Positions 44,653 to 51,509 of a stretch of 62,295 bases of DNA are shown here, in pieces (the first letter of the stretch is position 1; every line of letters starts with the position of its first letter). Origin of the DNA: Elusimicrobiota bacterium (lineage in GTDB: Bacteria; Elusimicrobiota; Elusimicrobia; Elusimicrobiales; UBA9959). The stretch covers positions 1-62,295 of the forward strand of contig JAAYVG010000019.1 of the NCBI GenBank assembly GCA_012517285.1, in the 5' to 3' direction. The notes beneath the pieces are model-generated. The model searched no databases. It was given only the letters and a program-made list of their open reading frames with translations, and had not been told where the DNA came from. A program made the position numbers and the translations under genes.

Positions 44653-45744
44653 TTAGTAGTGATTGTTAACTCCCATTATGATACTGAGAAATTCCTTTGA
44701 TATCTCATCCCAGTAATAATGTGATATGCCGTTTTTTATCTGAGGCAAATGAGCAATCTGATTATTATAAAGATATTTAAGTTTTTTTACACAATCATCA
44801 ATATCTGGCATTGCTATATATTGTTTATAATCTGTTTTTTCATATAAATCAGAATCTGTTTCAATGATACTGTGATTTATAAAAATTGAATTATTCTCAT
44901 CAAGGAAATCCGTTTGTCCACTATAATCAAGACATATATCCCATCTTCCTAAGGCAATAGCCTCTAAAAAACACAATCCGAATGACTCCGCTTTCGTCAA
45001 TGAAAAATATATATCGGAGTTCCTGTAAAGATCCCCCATACCCTTCTCAGATAATTTTTTATCAATTACAACAAGTCTTTTACCAAAAAGATTAGAATAG
45101 TATGAAATCATTTTTTTAAATTCAGGAATCTCAAAAGGTTTTGAATTATCTGTATTGTATGAAAGTTTGAGTGTAAGTTTTACATCATCCCTGTTTTTAA
45201 ATGCAGCATAAAAAGCCTTTAACAGAATATCAACCCCCTCCCTTTTCTGAGGACTTGCAACACATAAGAAGCTTCTCACCCTGTTTATCATCCTACCATC
45301 AAAGTAGTAATAATCAGGGTTTATACCGTATCTTAAAATCCTTAATTTTTTTTCATCAACCCCAGACCTAAGGAAAACATCATATGTAAAATGAGAAGGA
45401 ACAAAGACGAGATTCAGATACTTATTTATGTTTTCAACCCAGAGTTCAGGAAGTTGTGTAAACTCATAAACAAGAAATCCTATCTTTGTAATATTATCAG
45501 GAAGGTATTTGTAATTTATCGGATGTTCAAATGTAAAGACGATATCCCCAACAAACTTATTGCTAAATTTAAGCCTTTCCTCGTTATAAAGTTTAAAATT
45601 ATTATCATACAGAAAACCCTTTCTTTCATATATATTTATATCCACGCCATTTTTTAAAAGTGAATTTATTAATTCTCTTGAAATCTTTGACCAACTTGAT
45701 ATGCTTCTCACAATCCCAAAATATGTTATCTTAATATTATGCAT
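44653..45744 (-). CDS. GT4-family glycosyltransferase
   Basis: 363 residues, GT-B fold. The N-terminal domain has IGFLVYEFTQLPELWVE and VFVPSHFTYDVFL. The C-terminal donor domain has FLCVASPQKREGVDILLKAF and the EX7E motif in KAESFGLCFLEAIALGR. Sugar and acceptor are unknown; envelope or lipopolysaccharide glycans are likely. Its start codon at 45742-45744 lies in a 22-bp palindrome centred on ATGCAT, abutting the start of the radical SAM fragment at 45739. The first nine codons are duplicated at 51418-51444, beyond the nickel island. Confidence 0.85.
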   Translation of the reverse strand: MHNIKITYFGIVRSISSWSKISRELINSLLKNGVDINIYERKGFLYDNNFKLYNEERLKFSNKFVGDIVFTFEHPINYKYLPDNITKIGFLVYEFTQLPELWVENINKYLNLVFVPSHFTYDVFLRSGVDEKKLRILRYGINPDYYYFDGRMINRVRSFLCVASPQKREGVDILLKAFYAAFKNRDDVKLTLKLSYNTDNSKPFEIPEFKKMISYYSNLFGKRLVVIDKKLSEKGMGDLYRNSDIYFSLTKAESFGLCFLEAIALGRWDICLDYSGQTDFLDENNSIFINHSIIETDSDLYEKTDYKQYIAMPDIDDCVKKLKYLYNNQIAHLPQIKNGISHYYWDEISKEFLSIIMGVNNHY

Positions 45745-45809
45745 AATATTAATATACCAAAAAGAGCAATAATTGAAACAAAATACACACGCAATCTAAG
45801 ATGTAAAAG
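45718..45809. repeat. Left copy of the 92-bp direct repeat flanking the nickel island
   Basis: This copy matches 51418-51509 at 87 of 92 positions, offset exactly 5700 bp. It holds the first nine codons of the glycosyltransferase (minus) and the first 23 or so codons of the radical SAM gene (plus). Differences are at 45759, 45771, 45781, 45789 and 45790. Confidence 0.95.
45739..45809 (+). pseudogene. Decayed 5' fragment of the radical SAM gene
   Basis: Matches codons 1-23 of the radical SAM gene at 51439. Of the five base changes, three are silent, one changes Glu to Lys and one changes the first cluster cysteine (TGC) to Arg (CGC). Homology stops at 45809, where island sequence begins. It is a leftover of the insertion. 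Confidence 0.9.
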
Positions 45810-45843
45810 ATCCCGCTTCTGAAAGTTCTTTTTAATAACCTGT

Positions 45844-45860
45844 CCAACCTACGAAGTTGG
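45844..45860. repeat. REP-like hairpin, CCAAC stem
   Basis: CCAACCTACGAAGTTGG, with CCAAC/GTTGG arms and the CTACG core shared with the hairpins at 58-62 kb. It lies 35 bp inside the left end of the island. The preceding TAATAACCTGT also precedes the copy at 51292. Confidence 0.8.
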
Positions 45861-45888
45861 AAATATTTGGGTTGATAAAACATATAAC

Positions 45889-45915
45889 CAGAAGTAACCT
45901 CGTAGGTTACTTCTG
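45889..45915. repeat. REP-like hairpin after the DUF2117 gene
   Basis: CAGAAGTAACC and GGTTACTTCTG arms (11 bp) with loop TCGTA. It lies 5 bp past the DUF2117 stop codon, so it may also serve as an mRNA 3' end. Orientation is opposite to 45844. Confidence 0.85.
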
Positions 45916-45920
45916 ATTTT

Positions 45921-46970
45921 TTAGAACTCTTTAAAGGAAAGTATTCTTGTAGATAAAAAATTTAGAATTTTTTTCTTTACTTCGTTAAAAGGGGCGGTAG
46001 TCCTTTTCCTGCCAAAGAATATTTTTTTCAATACACGAAGCCCTTCCTTATCATCGGCTTTTACCCTAAGAACAACTGACCCGATAGCAAAACCACCTTT
46101 ATGCAAACCATCCCCATCTCCATCTGTTATACCTATAACAGGAATATTGAATCGTCTAAGTATATCTCCAGCTATGGCTGTAGTATCATCGCCTACAGTA
46201 ACAGCACCGGCAGAATTAGCGGCAAGTTCATAGATATACATCCCAGCATGATCTATAAACACAACACCATTTCCAAAAGAATGTTCTTGACGAACTGAGA
46301 TCCTCTGCTTACGCAACATGGATGTGGATGCTATTTTGGCTGTTTTTATGTCAACTCCACCCAACCTCTCCAACTTTTCAAGCCCATGCTTTTTTATTTT
46401 AACTCCATGCACTTGTTTAATTGAACGCCCATCGGTATAAAAGACTATTTCTCTGCCCAATGAGCGTCCGATCACTATGCCATTAACGAGTACAAATTCA
46501 TCCTTCTTTGCTGTGGTCATACGACGACAGAGTAAATTACCCTCTTTAAATATGTTCATTTCAACTTCTGGGACAGAGACCTCATTAAAACCGAGATTTT
46601 GCAGCGATGTGGAGATGGTTGATGGGCAAAAACCAGAAAGAATTCCATAGACTGGTCCTGAACACTCAGCAAAAATAACAGGTATATCGACAGCAGCTCT
46701 GTTTGCTACCATTCTGCCAAAAACTAGACCAGATATCTGATCTTTTCCCTTCGTTGCTATCAGCACTGATGAACAGGATGATGCAAGAATCTTAAGACAT
46801 TTAGATGGTTGTTCTCCCGGGCTTTCCACATTTTTTATTTTAGAGTCAAAAAGAGATGTGCGAGACATTGTTCCAGCCAGCATAAAACGTCCATCAGGAA
46901 AGGCATTAATCAAACGTAATGCCCATCCACTATCAAAAACTTCTGGTCCGTGAAAAAGAATTCCTATCAT
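45921..46970 (-). CDS. DUF2117 family protein
   Basis: 349 residues. GILFHGPEVFDSGWALRLI at the N-terminus, GTMSRTSLFDS, and GDDTTAIAGDILRRFNIPVI plus GITDGDGDG in the C-terminal half are hallmarks of DUF2117. This family is known to me mainly from methanogens and other nickel-using anaerobes; its function is unknown. The acidic glycine-rich GITDGDGDG and SGPVYGILSGF segments suggest nucleotide or metal binding, which is inference. I start at ATG 46970 because it overlaps the upstream stop as ATGA; an in-frame start at 47015 lacks family similarity. It ends the nikR operon. Base composition is less AT-rich than in flanking genes. Confidence 0.75.
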   Translation of the reverse strand: MIGILFHGPEVFDSGWALRLINAFPDGRFMLAGTMSRTSLFDSKIKNVESPGEQPSKCLKILASSCSSVLIATKGKDQISGLVFGRMVANRAAVDIPVIFAECSGPVYGILSGFCPSTISTSLQNLGFNEVSVPEVEMNIFKEGNLLCRRMTTAKKDEFVLVNGIVIGRSLGREIVFYTDGRSIKQVHGVKIKKHGLEKLERLGGVDIKTAKIASTSMLRKQRISVRQEHSFGNGVVFIDHAGMYIYELAANSAGAVTVGDDTTAIAGDILRRFNIPVIGITDGDGDGLHKGGFAIGSVVLRVKADDKEGLRVLKKIFFGRKRTTAPFNEVKKKILNFLSTRILSFKEF

Positions 46971-47524
46971 TTGGATATATACTCCATATAAAGCGCAGCT
47001 CTTCGACGGCTCCATGCCTCGTCTGCTTTATTTTTTTGCCCTGCCCAATAATCGGCATTCTTTAGCCACAGTTCAGCAGGTCTTTGATAATTTGATATAT
47101 CTTTACCAGCCGCTCTCATAAGTTCAGCAGCATGTTCTGCTGAGTCCGCAGCAAGAAAGAACATTGAACGGCTTTCACAGAAATCAGCCATCTTTATATA
47201 AACTTTTGATGCAGAAAGAAATTTTTTTCTACGTTCCAACAGAGAGGCCATGCGAGAAACCAGAAAAATAGCTGATTCAACCAGTCCACCCTTTATACAC
47301 GCTTCAAATCCTTTTCTATAAGTTTTTAAGGCAATAGATGGATTTGTTTTTTCTATCGCTATCCCTGCATTAAGAAAACCAGAGGCAGATAAAGCATAAC
47401 TCCCTTTTAATAATTTGAATTCTGCATATTTTAACCAAGTAGAAAAAGAATTTTTCCTTCTAGCATGTGACTCAGATATTCTACCTTCTATATAGCTATC
47501 TTTTTCTTCTAAACATTTTTTCAT
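46967..47524 (-). CDS. Helical-repeat (TPR/SNAP-like) protein
   Basis: 185 residues, no Cys cluster, no signal peptide or TM. Repeated helix pairs with the TPR alternation: LKYAEFKLLKGSYALSASGF, ALKTYRKGFEACIKGGLVES, AIFLVSRMASLLERRKKFLS, ASKVYIKMADFCESRSMFFL and DSAEHAAELMRAAGKDI. The layout resembles SNAP-like tetratricopeptide proteins. A very strong AAGGAGG ribosome-binding site precedes the ATG. It is coupled to the DUF2117 gene by an ATGA overlap, so the two probably work as a pair. Role unknown. Confidence 0.65.
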   Translation of the reverse strand: MKKCLEEKDSYIEGRISESHARRKNSFSTWLKYAEFKLLKGSYALSASGFLNAGIAIEKTNPSIALKTYRKGFEACIKGGLVESAIFLVSRMASLLERRKKFLSASKVYIKMADFCESRSMFFLAADSAEHAAELMRAAGKDISNYQRPAELWLKNADYWAGQKNKADEAWSRRRAALYMEYISK

Positions 47525-47547
47525 ATTTCCTCCTTATTGAATATTAG

Positions 47548-48501
47548 TTAACAAATAAAAAATGATGTCACAAACAATACAATGCCATAGGCCAGTGTTC
47601 GAGAAAGCAATGATACACCGATTATCACTGCTCCATCAGATGCCCCAAAAATTCCACAATAGTAAGGTATGGTATAACGTAAACTGGTAAGCGTAGAAAT
47701 AAAAGCCCCAGCAAATAAAGCAAAAGATAGTTCAGATCCAGAAACTGTTCCAGAAGCCAGCAAACCACCAGCCACAGTGTAAGCTCCGGCTGGACTTAAA
47801 AGACGGGAAGCAACGACAGGCATGACCAAAGGATTTAAGGGTAGGTAAGCAGTTATAAAAGAAAGATAATTAGCTGCTTTGTCAAAGAAACCCGCTGCTA
47901 TAAGATAATAAACGAGATATGCCACAGGTATCATAGTACGCAAGGTTTTAAGTATCACCTTAACAGAAGGATTAATAACAAGACGGGAAGCAGCCCAAAA
48001 AGACTCACTTTGCCTATTGTTAACACTTGCAGTAAATGTCTTTGGTTTATCAAAGATTATTCGTCCTACCAAAAGCATGATAGTAGCTTTAAGTCCGCAA
48101 GCAACAAGAAGAAGACCATAGTAAACCACTCCATAGATACCAAGCACAGGCACAGCTAAGGGCAAAATACTCTTGCCAGTAGCTATCTCACCCGGCAGAT
48201 TATTGACTATAGCAGCAATAGTAAGCTCACACCGATTTAAATTTCCACGGGCTCGCAGATCCGCTAACATTGAATGTCCTGCAGTAGGTGAAACTATGCT
48301 GGTTATAAAAGACGCTCCACAGTTTGGATTGAGATTGCCTAAACGCATAAGTGGAACGGCTATTCGATCTAAATACCAAAGCCATCCCATTTTTTCCAGC
48401 AAATGTGCGAGATAAACTGAGACTGCAAAAATAGGGACTATTCTAACAAGAAAGAGTGATCCGTCAACAAAGGCCCTGTATAATTGAGTATTAAATTCCA
48501 T
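47548..48501 (-). CDS. Gate-domain (nucleoside-recognition) membrane protein, candidate nickel permease
   Basis: 317 residues, about eight to nine TM segments. Two similar halves are visible: CGASFITSIVSPTAGHSMLA in the first and SRLLSPAGAYTVAGGLLASG in the second, each with an S-P-x-A-G-type break inside a membrane segment. This is the Gate (nucleoside-recognition) domain arrangement, the same domain that forms the membrane half of the iron transporter FeoB. Conserved-looking cysteines sit in NPNCGAS and YYCGIFG. No GTPase domain is attached. Its position between a NikR-adjacent TonB receptor and the DUF2117 pair makes nickel uptake across the inner membrane a reasonable hypothesis. AGGA precedes the ATG, 6 nt past the receptor stop. 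Confidence 0.7.
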   Translation of the reverse strand: MEFNTQLYRAFVDGSLFLVRIVPIFAVSVYLAHLLEKMGWLWYLDRIAVPLMRLGNLNPNCGASFITSIVSPTAGHSMLADLRARGNLNRCELTIAAIVNNLPGEIATGKSILPLAVPVLGIYGVVYYGLLLVACGLKATIMLLVGRIIFDKPKTFTASVNNRQSESFWAASRLVINPSVKVILKTLRTMIPVAYLVYYLIAAGFFDKAANYLSFITAYLPLNPLVMPVVASRLLSPAGAYTVAGGLLASGTVSGSELSFALFAGAFISTLTSLRYTIPYYCGIFGASDGAVIIGVSLLSRTLAYGIVLFVTSFFIC

Positions 48502-48507
48502 ATATTC

Positions 48508-50694
48508 CTATATCTTCCATGACACTTCTGTAAACCAGCTCCTGCCTGGAGCTCTATAATAGTCAAAGTAAACTTTGTCAAAAACATTTTGAACAGCCAT
48601 AGAAATAAAGAGATTCTCAGACTGTTTCCATGTCACCTTTAAATCCATTGTAAAATAAGGATCGCGGGATCCATATACTCCATTTACTGTATCGGTATTT
48701 GCATCTGAATTATATCTCTTACCAACATAACGACCTAAACCAGCAAAATAAAAACTGCCCACATTGAAATCGCTTCCAAAGGAATACATAGTGGATGGCA
48801 TGTCTGCAAGTTTTTTACCAACGCTTGCGGGATTAGCAGAATTTTTGGTAATTTTAGCATCGTTAAGAGTAAGGTTACAGAAAAACCGACCACCATTAGT
48901 GAAAACATGCTCTGCCTCAAATTCCCATCCACTACCAAAAGCTTCACCAGCGTTTTCATTTATCAAAAGATTTGGATTAACGCTATGCCTGTATATAAGG
49001 TCTTTCATTATGTTTTCAAAATAAACCGCTCCTAACTTAAATCCAAGCCATGGTCTGAGTTCTATTCCTGCATCCCATGAAGTTATAGTTTCCGGCTTCA
49101 GATTTGGATTTCCCTGATAAACCTTGTTATAAGAAGTCCATGTGCGATACATCTCATACACGGTCGGTGATCGAAAAGAACGCCCCAGCGATGCTCTCAA
49201 AGTCGTTTTTGTGTATGGATTATATACAAGAGAAACCTTAGGACTTAACGCAGAATCAGATCGCCTCGGATAATAAATAGGATACCCACTTACACCAGAT
49301 TGATATGCAAACCCATCATATGTCCACCACCAATCCATTCTGGCTGAAAGATAGGCTAACAGATCTTTACTCAAGATTATCTCATCCTGAAGATAGACAC
49401 CCATATCCTCTCCCTTTCCACCGGCTGAGTAAGAAAGCAAACCTTTTTCTTCTTCATTCCTCCAGTCTGAAATATTATTCTCACTGGTCATGGCTTTCGA
49501 GAAGCGATAAGACATACCAATGCTAAAAGATTGCCCTGTAAAAAACTCAGGTAGAGTCAGTTGTAGTTCTGAATTGAGCGAAGTGGACGGGGTATCAGAA
49601 ATCTTGCCTGCTCCTCCAAATCTCGTGGCCAGACCAGAAGCAGGGGTAACATACCAATTTTTTAAGGTATCTACATATCCTAAAGACGCCTTAAGTTCCA
49701 AGTCTTCTGTTTCTTTTGAATACGAAGCGGAGAAAAAATCATGCAATCGTCCGCCATCTCCAGCAAGAAAACTGCTTTCTGTTACTCCATTATAACTCCA
49801 GACCTCTGCTCCTGAAAGATCTCTTATATAGGTATGAGGATCGTCATAAAAATAATCATATTCGGTCCTAAAGAAGGAAAAACTTAGTTTATCAAAATCT
49901 GAAATATCATACCAGCCACGGAAAGAAATATTTTTTTCTTTCCACCCATTATCCCCTTTATCGCCTATGAGATAAGACGCTAAACCGGTATTATCAGTGG
50001 TATTCTTCCAGCCTGTAAGTCCTGATGTCGGAGCATTTTTTTGCACATTAAGGTCAGAAGCATAGCCAGAAGTATATTTATAACCATAAGCAAACAAAAG
50101 ACTGAGTTTTTTACCAAAACGGTCTCCATAAGAAAAATAACCATTGATCATGTTATTCAAGGATGGCGAATTACCGAGAGCGTTTCCATAACCAGTTTTA
50201 ATAGAAAACTCCCTTTTCTTTGGCTTGTGCACTATAAAGTTTACGACACCTCCCATAGCATTACCACCATAGAGTCCTGAGAAAGGTCCTCTGGCCACTT
50301 CTACCCTTTCCAAATCATCCACAGGTATCCCACCGAATGAAACTGACCCGGTATAGGCATCATTGAGCTGAATTCCATCAAAAAGAATCAACGTACGCTG
50401 CTGACCGGGAACACCTCTCAATGTCACAGCCGATGAAGTATCCATCAAACCCTTACCACGACGATTAAAAACTCCCGGCAGAGAGTTAAGCGCCTGATCC
50501 ACACTAAAAATAGTCTTAGCATTAATATCTTCCTTAACCACTACGCTGACGGCACCGGGGGTTTTTTCAGCCACACTCTTCTTCTTAGCAGATACACTCA
50601 CAACTTGCCCAGCCCAAACCTCTGTTTCAGCCAAAATTCTATAAGGAAACACTGAGAGCAATGTCATCAAAAACGGCAAAAAAAACTTCTTCAT
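48508..50694 (-). CDS. TonB-dependent outer-membrane receptor, candidate nickel receptor
   Basis: 728 residues. Signal peptide KKFFLPFLMTLLSVFPYRILA, then a plug domain (about 45-160: DQALNSLPGVFNRRG, LRGVPGQQRTLILFDGIQL, VEVARGPFSGLYGGNAMGGV) and a beta-barrel to the C-terminal VSWKI. SFRSPTVYEMYRT and NPNLKPETITSWDAGIELRP are typical of BtuB/CirA-like barrels. I use ATG at 50694, which has GGAG 7 nt upstream; an in-frame GTG at 50712 falls inside the operator-like inverted repeat. No TonB, ExbB or ExbD is in this window. The ligand is not readable; nickel is inferred from nikR directly upstream. Confidence 0.85.
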   Translation of the reverse strand: MKKFFLPFLMTLLSVFPYRILAETEVWAGQVVSVSAKKKSVAEKTPGAVSVVVKEDINAKTIFSVDQALNSLPGVFNRRGKGLMDTSSAVTLRGVPGQQRTLILFDGIQLNDAYTGSVSFGGIPVDDLERVEVARGPFSGLYGGNAMGGVVNFIVHKPKKREFSIKTGYGNALGNSPSLNNMINGYFSYGDRFGKKLSLLFAYGYKYTSGYASDLNVQKNAPTSGLTGWKNTTDNTGLASYLIGDKGDNGWKEKNISFRGWYDISDFDKLSFSFFRTEYDYFYDDPHTYIRDLSGAEVWSYNGVTESSFLAGDGGRLHDFFSASYSKETEDLELKASLGYVDTLKNWYVTPASGLATRFGGAGKISDTPSTSLNSELQLTLPEFFTGQSFSIGMSYRFSKAMTSENNISDWRNEEEKGLLSYSAGGKGEDMGVYLQDEIILSKDLLAYLSARMDWWWTYDGFAYQSGVSGYPIYYPRRSDSALSPKVSLVYNPYTKTTLRASLGRSFRSPTVYEMYRTWTSYNKVYQGNPNLKPETITSWDAGIELRPWLGFKLGAVYFENIMKDLIYRHSVNPNLLINENAGEAFGSGWEFEAEHVFTNGGRFFCNLTLNDAKITKNSANPASVGKKLADMPSTMYSFGSDFNVGSFYFAGLGRYVGKRYNSDANTDTVNGVYGSRDPYFTMDLKVTWKQSENLFISMAVQNVFDKVYFDYYRAPGRSWFTEVSWKI

Positions 50695-50705
50695 CACCTT
50701 CTCCA

Positions 50706-50732
50706 GTAACACTTATTTTAATTTCGTGTTAT
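50706..50732. promoter_or_regulatory. NikR-type inverted repeat upstream of the receptor gene
   Basis: GTAACAC, 13 bp, GTGTTAT, in the gap between nikR and the TonB receptor gene. The half-sites and the 13-bp spacing are the same as at 51159-51185 but in opposite order. On the minus strand it brackets a weak TTGTCC, 16 bp, TAAAAT promoter. An operator role for NikR is likely but the reversed polarity is unexplained. Confidence 0.55.
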
Positions 50733-50748
50733 CTTAGGACAAAAAAAA

Positions 50749-51168
50749 TTATTTACCAACTGTGGTCACGCTTAGTGTAGTGTGTTTAACACCCTTTATA
50801 GACTTCAAAGAATCAGATAATTCCTTTATCTTAGGACACAGTCCCTTAACAGCTATTATCTCTAAACAATTATCGTGGTCCATATGAATGTGCTGGGCAG
50901 AAATTATTATCCCGCTGTGATCATGCTGTATATCCATTATCCTGTTCACAAGTTCTCTCTTATGATGATCATAAAATATAGTAATTACTCCAGCGATGAC
51001 TCCACCCCTGTTAAATGTATCTGACACAAACTCCTTGCGAATCATGTCAGCTATTGCTTTGGAACGGTTAGTATAACCTTCTGCTGCAATATGAGAATCA
51101 AATCTCCTCAACAAATCTGCTTCAAGCGAAACTCCGAATCGGGAAATAGAGGTTTTGCGTGTTACCAT
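50749..51168 (-). CDS. nikR: Nickel-responsive regulator NikR
   Basis: 139 residues. The N-terminal ribbon-helix-helix (SISRFGVSLEADLLRRFDSH, then YTNRSKAIADMIRKEF) is followed by an ACT-like nickel domain. The high-affinity nickel ligands appear conserved: His in IQHDHSG, then HIHMDHDNC, giving His, His and Cys at the spacing of H87, H89 and C95 in E. coli NikR. It is the first gene of the operon and a NikR-type inverted repeat covers its start codon. The predicted promoter places +1 at or next to the ATG, so the mRNA may be leaderless. Confidence 0.93.
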   Translation of the reverse strand: MVTRKTSISRFGVSLEADLLRRFDSHIAAEGYTNRSKAIADMIRKEFVSDTFNRGGVIAGVITIFYDHHKRELVNRIMDIQHDHSGIIISAQHIHMDHDNCLEIIAVKGLCPKIKELSDSLKSIKGVKHTTLSVTTVGK

Positions 51169-51185
51169 ATTAAATATTGTAGCAC
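51159..51185. promoter_or_regulatory. NikR-type operator overlapping the nikR start
   Basis: GTGTTAC, 13 bp, GTAGCAC: a spaced inverted repeat with one mismatch, 27 bp long, close to the 28-bp span of E. coli NikR sites. From memory, GTGTTAC-type half-sites with about 13-bp spacing are reported for NikR of sulfate reducers. It overlaps the -10 box and the start codon of nikR, so autorepression is predicted. Confidence 0.7.
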
Positions 51186-51204
51186 ATTAAAAGTATTGGT
51201 TCAA
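51176..51204 (-). promoter_or_regulatory. nikR operon promoter
   Basis: On the minus strand, TTGAAC (51204-51199), a 17-bp spacer and TACAAT (51181-51176). Seven bases separate the -10 box from the ATG, leaving no room for a Shine-Dalgarno sequence. Confidence 0.6.
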
Positions 51205-51291
51205 AAACTTATAATTATCCAATACAACCCGCCTGCCTATATGCTGAAGTGGCTCCGGCAGGTAGGAAAAAAAGTGAGAGGTAATAACCTG

Positions 51292-51310
51292 TCCAACCTA
51301 CGAAGTTGGA
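51292..51310. repeat. REP-like hairpin, TCCAAC stem
   Basis: TCCAACCTACGAAGTTGGA; same core as 45844-45860 and preceded by the same TAATAACCTG. It sits near the right end of the island, so the island has one of these hairpins at each end. Confidence 0.8.
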
Positions 51311-51417: not shown

Positions 51418-51509
51418 AAAATATGTTATCTTAATATTATGCATAATATTAATATACCCAAAAGAGCAATCATTGAAACAGAATACACCTGCAATCTAAG
51501 ATGTAAAAG
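51418..51509. repeat. Right copy of the 92-bp direct repeat flanking the nickel island
   Basis: See 45718-45809. This copy contains the intact start of the radical SAM gene and a truncated nine-codon start of the glycosyltransferase gene on the minus strand (51444-51418), after which island sequence begins. Confidence 0.95.

Follow-up and report, generated by a model that had tools for sequence, protein, structure and literature searches.

Layout of the Locus

The stretch of DNA analysed here (62,295 nt, contig JAAYVG010000019.1 of an Elusimicrobiota bacterium; below, the window) belongs to a genome of 1.96 Mb that is 97% complete, and it carries between positions 45921 and 51168 a block of five minus-strand genes which, judging from its genes and putative regulatory sites, very probably is a nickel uptake module. 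The genes encode the repressor NikR, a TonB-dependent receptor, a Gate-domain protein, a helical-repeat protein and a protein of the family DUF2117. The initial annotation of the window had described this tight order, including an ATGA overlap of the last two genes, and both gene calls and Pfam/NCBIfam matches bore it out: nikR and the receptor gene are 54 nt apart (counted to the ATG at 50694), the receptor and Gate genes 6 nt, and the Gate and helical-repeat genes 23 nt, while the overlap of the helical-repeat and DUF2117 genes comprises 4 nt (46967–46970). The features are:

50749–51168, minus strand: nikR, nickel-responsive repressor (Pfam/NCBIfam; ligands H82, H93, H95, C101)
48508–50694, minus strand: TonB-dependent outer-membrane receptor (barrel PF00593, 152 bits; plug PF07715, 84.7 bits)
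47548–48501, minus strand: predicted Gate-domain inner-membrane carrier, nickel-type subfamily (PF07670, model, tree, conservation)
46967–47524, minus strand: helical-repeat (SNAP/TPR-like) cytoplasmic protein (SNAP profile, 23.8 bits; conserved residues)
45921–46970, minus strand: DUF2117 protein (PF09890, 277 bits; alignment; model)
51159–51185, no strand: NikR operator 1, sequence match GTGTTAC-N13-GTAgCAC, convergent type, one mismatch
50706–50732, no strand: NikR operator 2, sequence match GTAACAC-N13-GTGTTAt, reversed type, one mismatch
45886–45918, minus strand: terminator-like hairpin closing the block at its 3′ end (the hairpin count in the sequence is not above that in shuffles)
45718–45809, no strand: 92-bp direct repeat, left copy (94.6% identical to the right copy)
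51418–51509, no strand: 92-bp direct repeat, right copy (the 5′ end of a radical-SAM gene at 51439)

Two gene starts were revised. The start of the DUF2117 gene is at 46970 rather than at 47015, where the longest open reading frame (ORF) had put it, and for the receptor gene, whose ORF begins with a GTG at 50712, the ATG at 50694 is preferred because of its Shine-Dalgarno sequence and signal peptide.

NikR and Its Operators

The nikR product matches the ribbon-helix-helix DNA-binding domain with 23.7 bits (cut-off 20.5), the NikR_C domain with 108.2 bits (cut-off 22) and the NCBIfam model PRK04460 with 153 bits (cut-off 105). Its nickel ligands are unchanged in three orthologues, and their spacing (His-x10-His-x-His-x5-Cys) is presumably that of H76, H87, H89 and C95 in NikR from Escherichia coli.

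The NikR motif of delta-proteobacteria is GTGTTAC-N13/14-GTAACAC, and the opposite order of the half-sites is on record for Desulfotalea and Desulfovibrio (PMC545781). At up to two mismatches to this motif the window holds one site for each order, each with a single mismatch, where chance would be expected to yield 0.07 (operator 1 type) and 0.02 (operator 2 type) in the 62 kb. The inverted repeats seen earlier at nikR and before the receptor gene are thus confirmed. Operator 1 covers the start codon of nikR and the −10 element of a promoter-like site at 51204–51176, and operator 2, before the receptor gene, overlaps another at 50742–50715; sigma-70-like matches of this kind are frequent by chance. 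Overlap of both operators with promoter-like sites is as expected of a repressor of import.

NikR sites are also present in three other Elusimicrobiota loci (L007, L008, L011) and in two from Acidobacteria (L014, L016). Most of the family's nikR loci carry the site at the nikR start; the second site was seen only in nikR loci that bear the Gate module. No riboswitch was found in the window or in the loci examined. In Desulfobacterota (L012, L013, L015, L019, L140–L143) a conserved terminator-like leader hairpin, GCCANGAAGGC...TTCNTGGCTTTTTT, lies about 300 nt or less before the tonB receptor gene; it could be an attenuator, and two of the leaders, when searched, matched no Rfam family.

Receptor and Gate Protein

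The receptor is 57–67% identical to its counterparts in L007 and L008, and a TonB receptor lies in the cluster of every bacterial locus except L011.

The Gate protein (317 amino acids) matches PF07670 in two stretches with 40.2 bits (cut-off 29.6). This is its sole Pfam match; there is no FeoB-type N-terminal G domain. The structural model (predicted local distance difference test score, pLDDT, 79) aligns best with the concentrative nucleoside transporter CNTnw (VIA-align Z 13.2 over 284 residues, although among helical proteins a Z near 13 may reflect a common arrangement) and next with other elevator transporters, so that all leading alignments fall into one mechanistic class. We accordingly interpret the protein as a complete secondary carrier, and the earlier comparison with the membrane half of FeoB was dropped, FeoB not being its closest analogue. 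A sequence search of the PDB gave no relative of either the Gate or the DUF2117 protein.

With a model of the Gate subfamily, 399–495 bits were obtained in four of 192 Desulfobacterota genomes, all four DUF2117-positive, 255 bits in genome G471 and no more than 181 bits in about 80 others. In 22 of 25 Desulfobacterota loci that were examined, the gene for the protein of the last class has cbiC or cbiE nearby or stands between cbiL and cbiD (as in L110 and L113); these proteins have no curated NCBIfam family name, and those inside cobalamin operons are likely to be cobalt carriers. Nickel-type and cobalamin-linked Gate proteins are homologous over their full length (hhalign 99.8%, E 3.9e-29, 287 columns) and form separate clades with a support of 100/99. 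Because the nearest Gate paralogue is found among cobalamin-synthesis genes, the family looks like one of cobalt/nickel carriers. An inner-membrane carrier, as the Gate protein had originally been taken to be, is thus what both the elevator-like model and the paralogue point to, transport itself being predicted; that the metal carried by the window's protein is nickel we consider a well-supported inference. The expectation that Gate genes neighbour nickel genes holds for this subfamily, whereas Gate proteins in general are no nickel marker.

A metal site had been suggested near two cysteines of the Gate protein. The cysteine of the NPNCG motif (Cys61) is kept in 13 of 13 nickel-type and in 22 of 25 cobalamin-linked proteins, but the YYCG position holds cysteine in just 3 of the 13 and was given up. 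The two clades differ at positions 76, 236 and 237. His76 occurs only in the seven proteins of form A (defined below), all others having Asn76; position 237 is proline in form A, asparagine in form B and glutamate in 25 of 25 cobalamin-linked proteins. C61 and H76 are, from this pattern of conservation, candidate metal ligands. The "Gate" protein of Brachymonas (L009/L010), a distant relative on a long branch, was not counted as nickel type. A further cobalt/nickel module is perhaps encoded in G471 (L144, 5825–11643), where a CobN/Mg-chelatase gene (1172.9 bits) has a Gate gene on either side and a TonB receptor gene lies downstream.

The Gate protein might instead export nickel or an apo-chelator, the system then serving detoxification or metallophore recycling. 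Elevator carriers can operate in both directions, and next to the FecBCD importer encoded in Desulfobacterota a second importer would be redundant. However, in Elusimicrobiota and Acidobacteria the Gate protein is the sole inner-membrane transporter of the block, the NikR operators lie where a repressor of import genes would be expected to bind, the block fills a slot that NikM holds in some sister genomes, and no genes for making a metallophore were noticed in it. We therefore give export little credence.

Helical-repeat Protein and DUF2117

The DUF2117 protein matches PF09890 over positions 1–324 of 325 (cut-off 25 bits), and H7, E10, D13, C103, K193, H195, H241, D261, D262, D283, D285 and D287 are invariant or nearly so. 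In its model (pLDDT 86) the N-terminal domain is Rossmann-like with weak matches only, and the C-terminal GDDT...DGD region is barely covered by structural matches. The helical-repeat protein falls just short of the SNAP profile cut-off of 25 bits, which its counterpart in L012 passes with 27.8 bits, and has an invariant cluster of D127, E130, H131 and E134. Its gene immediately precedes that of DUF2117 in the archaeal loci L018 and L084, where no importer gene adjoins, and in all bacterial loci examined whose contig covers the region; in these bacterial loci the two genes almost always overlap by 4 nt.

Besides cytoplasmic nickel handling, the initial annotation had allowed that this pair energises or gates the carrier, and one could indeed think of a regulatory subunit of the Gate protein, comparable to RCK/TrkA of potassium transporters. 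With Foldseek, the DUF2117 model is matched best by RCK chains of GsuK/TrkA (E 1.4e-4 and 4.5e-4), and the order Gate-helical-DUF2117 is conserved. The template modelling (TM) scores are, however, only 0.22, with a root-mean-square deviation of about 21 Å over the two-domain alignment, and VIA-align shares just the Rossmann-like N-terminal domain (Z 7.5); the likeness was not accepted because of the low TM-scores. In addition, at least three Desulfobacterota loci (L017, L019, L143) have genes for a FecBCD-type ABC (ATP-binding cassette) importer and then the pair, with no Gate gene, which makes it unlikely that DUF2117 energises or gates the Gate protein. Energising or gating thus finds no support, and we rate a gating subunit as improbable.

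A role after import is most likely, since the pair stays coupled when importers are swapped and occurs importer-free in archaea. That the pair handles nickel in the cytoplasm is a tentative proposal. Somewhat more tentative is the wider idea that the two proteins form a new cytoplasmic nickel-handling complex (for chelate opening, chaperoning or delivery), operating behind either of two bacterial inner-membrane importers and also in methanogens, and that the Gate family in its entirety represents a so far undescribed class of nickel/cobalt carriers whose choice of metal might be set around positions 61, 76 and 237.

In the literature searched we found no functional study of DUF2117. Viral contigs yielded no DUF2117 relative, and weak DUF2117-like matches in G023 (a phosphofructokinase) and G268 were not counted.

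Distribution and Nickel Context

When 84,980 species genomes were scanned with a three-row DUF2117 alignment, 13 loci were found; further ones came from phylum- and class-wide searches. The family is seldom met with (in 5 of the 295 genomes from the window's phylum and in 9 of 192 of the Desulfobacterota class, two of these nine matches being short or weak), and the block or its core was found in other Elusimicrobiota, in Acidobacteria, in Desulfobacterota and in Brachymonas. Two forms can be distinguished. Form A (Elusimicrobiota, Acidobacteria) consists of receptor, Gate, helical-repeat and DUF2117 genes, usually with nikR; form B (Desulfobacterota) has in addition a FecB-FecC-FecE ABC importer between receptor and Gate, the Gate gene being absent from the three loci mentioned above. 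In Brachymonas, receptor, FecBCE and distant Gate genes diverge from helical-repeat and DUF2117 genes. Every bacterial locus thus encodes an inner-membrane importer, either Gate or ABC. Gate and DUF2117 genes co-occur: of 24 Elusimicrobiota genomes, those with the Gate subfamily are precisely the five that are DUF2117-positive (Fisher p = 2e-5), apart from one weak 28-bit match, and the top four Gate scores in Desulfobacterota, given above, all belong to DUF2117-positive genomes.

The link to nickel, which had been drawn from the window, holds beyond it. In L011/L005 the gene order is DUF2117-helical-Gate-NikR-HypF-x-HypE-LysR-HypD, and in L007/L006 the same block has HypF-x-HypE one gene further on. 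The gene x between hypF and hypE is a conserved ORF of about 270 codons (L005, 5906–6736; L007, 1016–1825) with no Pfam match. At other nikR loci of Elusimicrobiota, a NikM gene adjoins in three (G012, G025, G028), and in a fourth the neighbour is a UreH-like DsbD_2 gene; the mutual exclusion of NikM and DUF2117 is suggestive only (0 of 5 vs. 3 of 19, p = 1). A Phenol_MetA_deg outer-membrane-type protein, possibly a nickel-related porin, is encoded next to nikR in several Elusimicrobiota (L037, 1801–2541; L054, 1757–2494), and an ORF resembling it adjoins the DUF2117 gene in L006 (5140–5607).

The window's own genome encodes two NiFe-hydrogenase large subunits with the motifs RxCGxC and DPCxSC. 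The window had been noted to hold no NikABCDE, NikMNQO/CbiMNQO, NiCoT or HupE gene; CbiM/NikM (PF01891) and NicO are absent genome-wide too, the genome-wide search not extending to HupE, NikABCDE and HypA/B.

Proposed Function

The following course of events would explain these observations. When nickel is scarce, NikR would leave both operators and the operon would be transcribed. The TonB receptor would then take a nickel chelate (or nickel) across the outer membrane, and the Gate protein, as an elevator-type carrier related to the presumed cobalt carrier of cobalamin operons, would carry nickel across the inner membrane. In the cytoplasm the translationally coupled helical-repeat/DUF2117 pair would, most likely, bind or free nickel or hand it to hydrogenase maturation (HypF/E/D, HycI). 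Gene order, operator sequences, conservation, co-occurrence and the genome's nickel enzymes were observed directly; we infer that NikR binds and represses, that the receptor's substrate is a chelate, and which substrate the Gate protein carries and in which direction. Taken in full, with carrier and pair, the explanation is probable, if less so than the function of the block as such; its weakest step is what the helical-repeat protein and DUF2117 would do biochemically.

Several findings weigh against a nickel function. The hypF gene of the window lies 20 kb from the block, and the hydrogenase operons of the genome that were inspected have no good NikR site. The likeness of the Gate model to the elevator fold (Z 13) does not indicate a substrate. 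G016, which is DUF2117-positive and incomplete, has NicO and no NiFe hydrogenase was found in it; together with a borderline NicO match in the likewise positive G228, this leaves some genomes with a further candidate importer beside the module. In the loci of Desulfobacterota, Brachymonas and archaea neither a NikR gene nor a NikR site was found (nor, in the leaders of the first two, any other common operator-like repeat), so that nickel is indicated for part of the family only. The Desulfobacterota Gate proteins have Asn76, as the cobalamin-linked ones do, and some could therefore carry cobalt. Finally, in one group of archaea the DUF2117 gene follows GlmM/GlmU genes, which are non-nickel genes, and lacks a helical-repeat partner, although a HycI hydrogenase protease and ECF (energy-coupling factor) ATPases are encoded nearby; this speaks against a purely nickel-related role.

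A module for cobalt or a corrinoid, with NikR a mere neighbour, is an alternative. TonB receptor and FecBCD resemble BtuBCDF, the receptor weakly matching BtuB-type models and the ABC genes in Desulfobacterota being of the FecBCD type; moreover, the nearest Gate paralogue sits in cbi operons, and in G471 a CobN-like chelatase is encoded beside two Gate genes. Yet none of the loci has a cobalamin riboswitch, NikR operators are present in the window and five relatives, hyp genes adjoin in two relatives, and the Gate clades are well separated. For the window we regard cobalt or a corrinoid as unlikely, while for the Desulfobacterota form this alternative still stands.

Relation to Known Systems

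The nickel uptake module has partial counterparts. CbtX (COG3366) was predicted in 2004 to be a cobalt transporter from its context in delta-proteobacterial cobalamin clusters (PMC545781), and the Gate paralogue of cobalamin operons may be CbtX. The window's Gate protein shares full-length homology and Cys61 with these paralogues in Desulfobacterota cbi operons but belongs to a separate clade and neighbours nikR, tonB receptor and DUF2117 genes rather than cbi genes. The ECF-type systems NikMNQO/NikKMLQO occupy the same slot by nikR in the three sister genomes, with the same type of operator, whereas the block encodes no CbiM/NikM, NikQ or NikO. In Helicobacter, TonB-dependent nickel uptake via FrpB4/FecA3 is regulated by NikR (cited in PMC11247825); the receptor here would likewise be NikR-controlled, to judge from the operator sequences, and the system differs from what is described there in its inner-membrane partner and in the added DUF2117/helical-repeat pair.

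DUF2117 is presumably the same family as COG4022. The latter has been listed among methanogen-specific proteins (PMC1852104). Archaeal and bacterial DUF2117 belong to one Pfam family and can share the preceding helical-repeat gene (L018, L084), whereas in methanogens no transporter gene adjoins and another archaeal group has the GlmM/GlmU neighbours.

A genome can encode NiFe hydrogenases and yet be without the usual nickel importers; in the present one CbiM/NikM and NicO are missing, and the module offers a candidate carrier together with handles for its study (NikR sites, Cys61, His76). If the explanation is true, the cobalt carrier of cobalamin operons, so far only predicted, would become part of a nickel/cobalt family, and DUF2117, an archaeal family, would receive a first functional lead.

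Origin of the Block

The block has a G+C content of 39%, as compared to 30–32% outside, and is flanked by direct repeats, namely the 92-bp pair and a 29-bp pair at 45833–45861 and 51282–51310. The congeneric genome G001 is without it. These three features fit gain of the block as a unit, and probably it was acquired in this way. A sequence of about 30 bp from the terminal hairpin recurs in several copies between 58495 and 62009, forming a repeat family.

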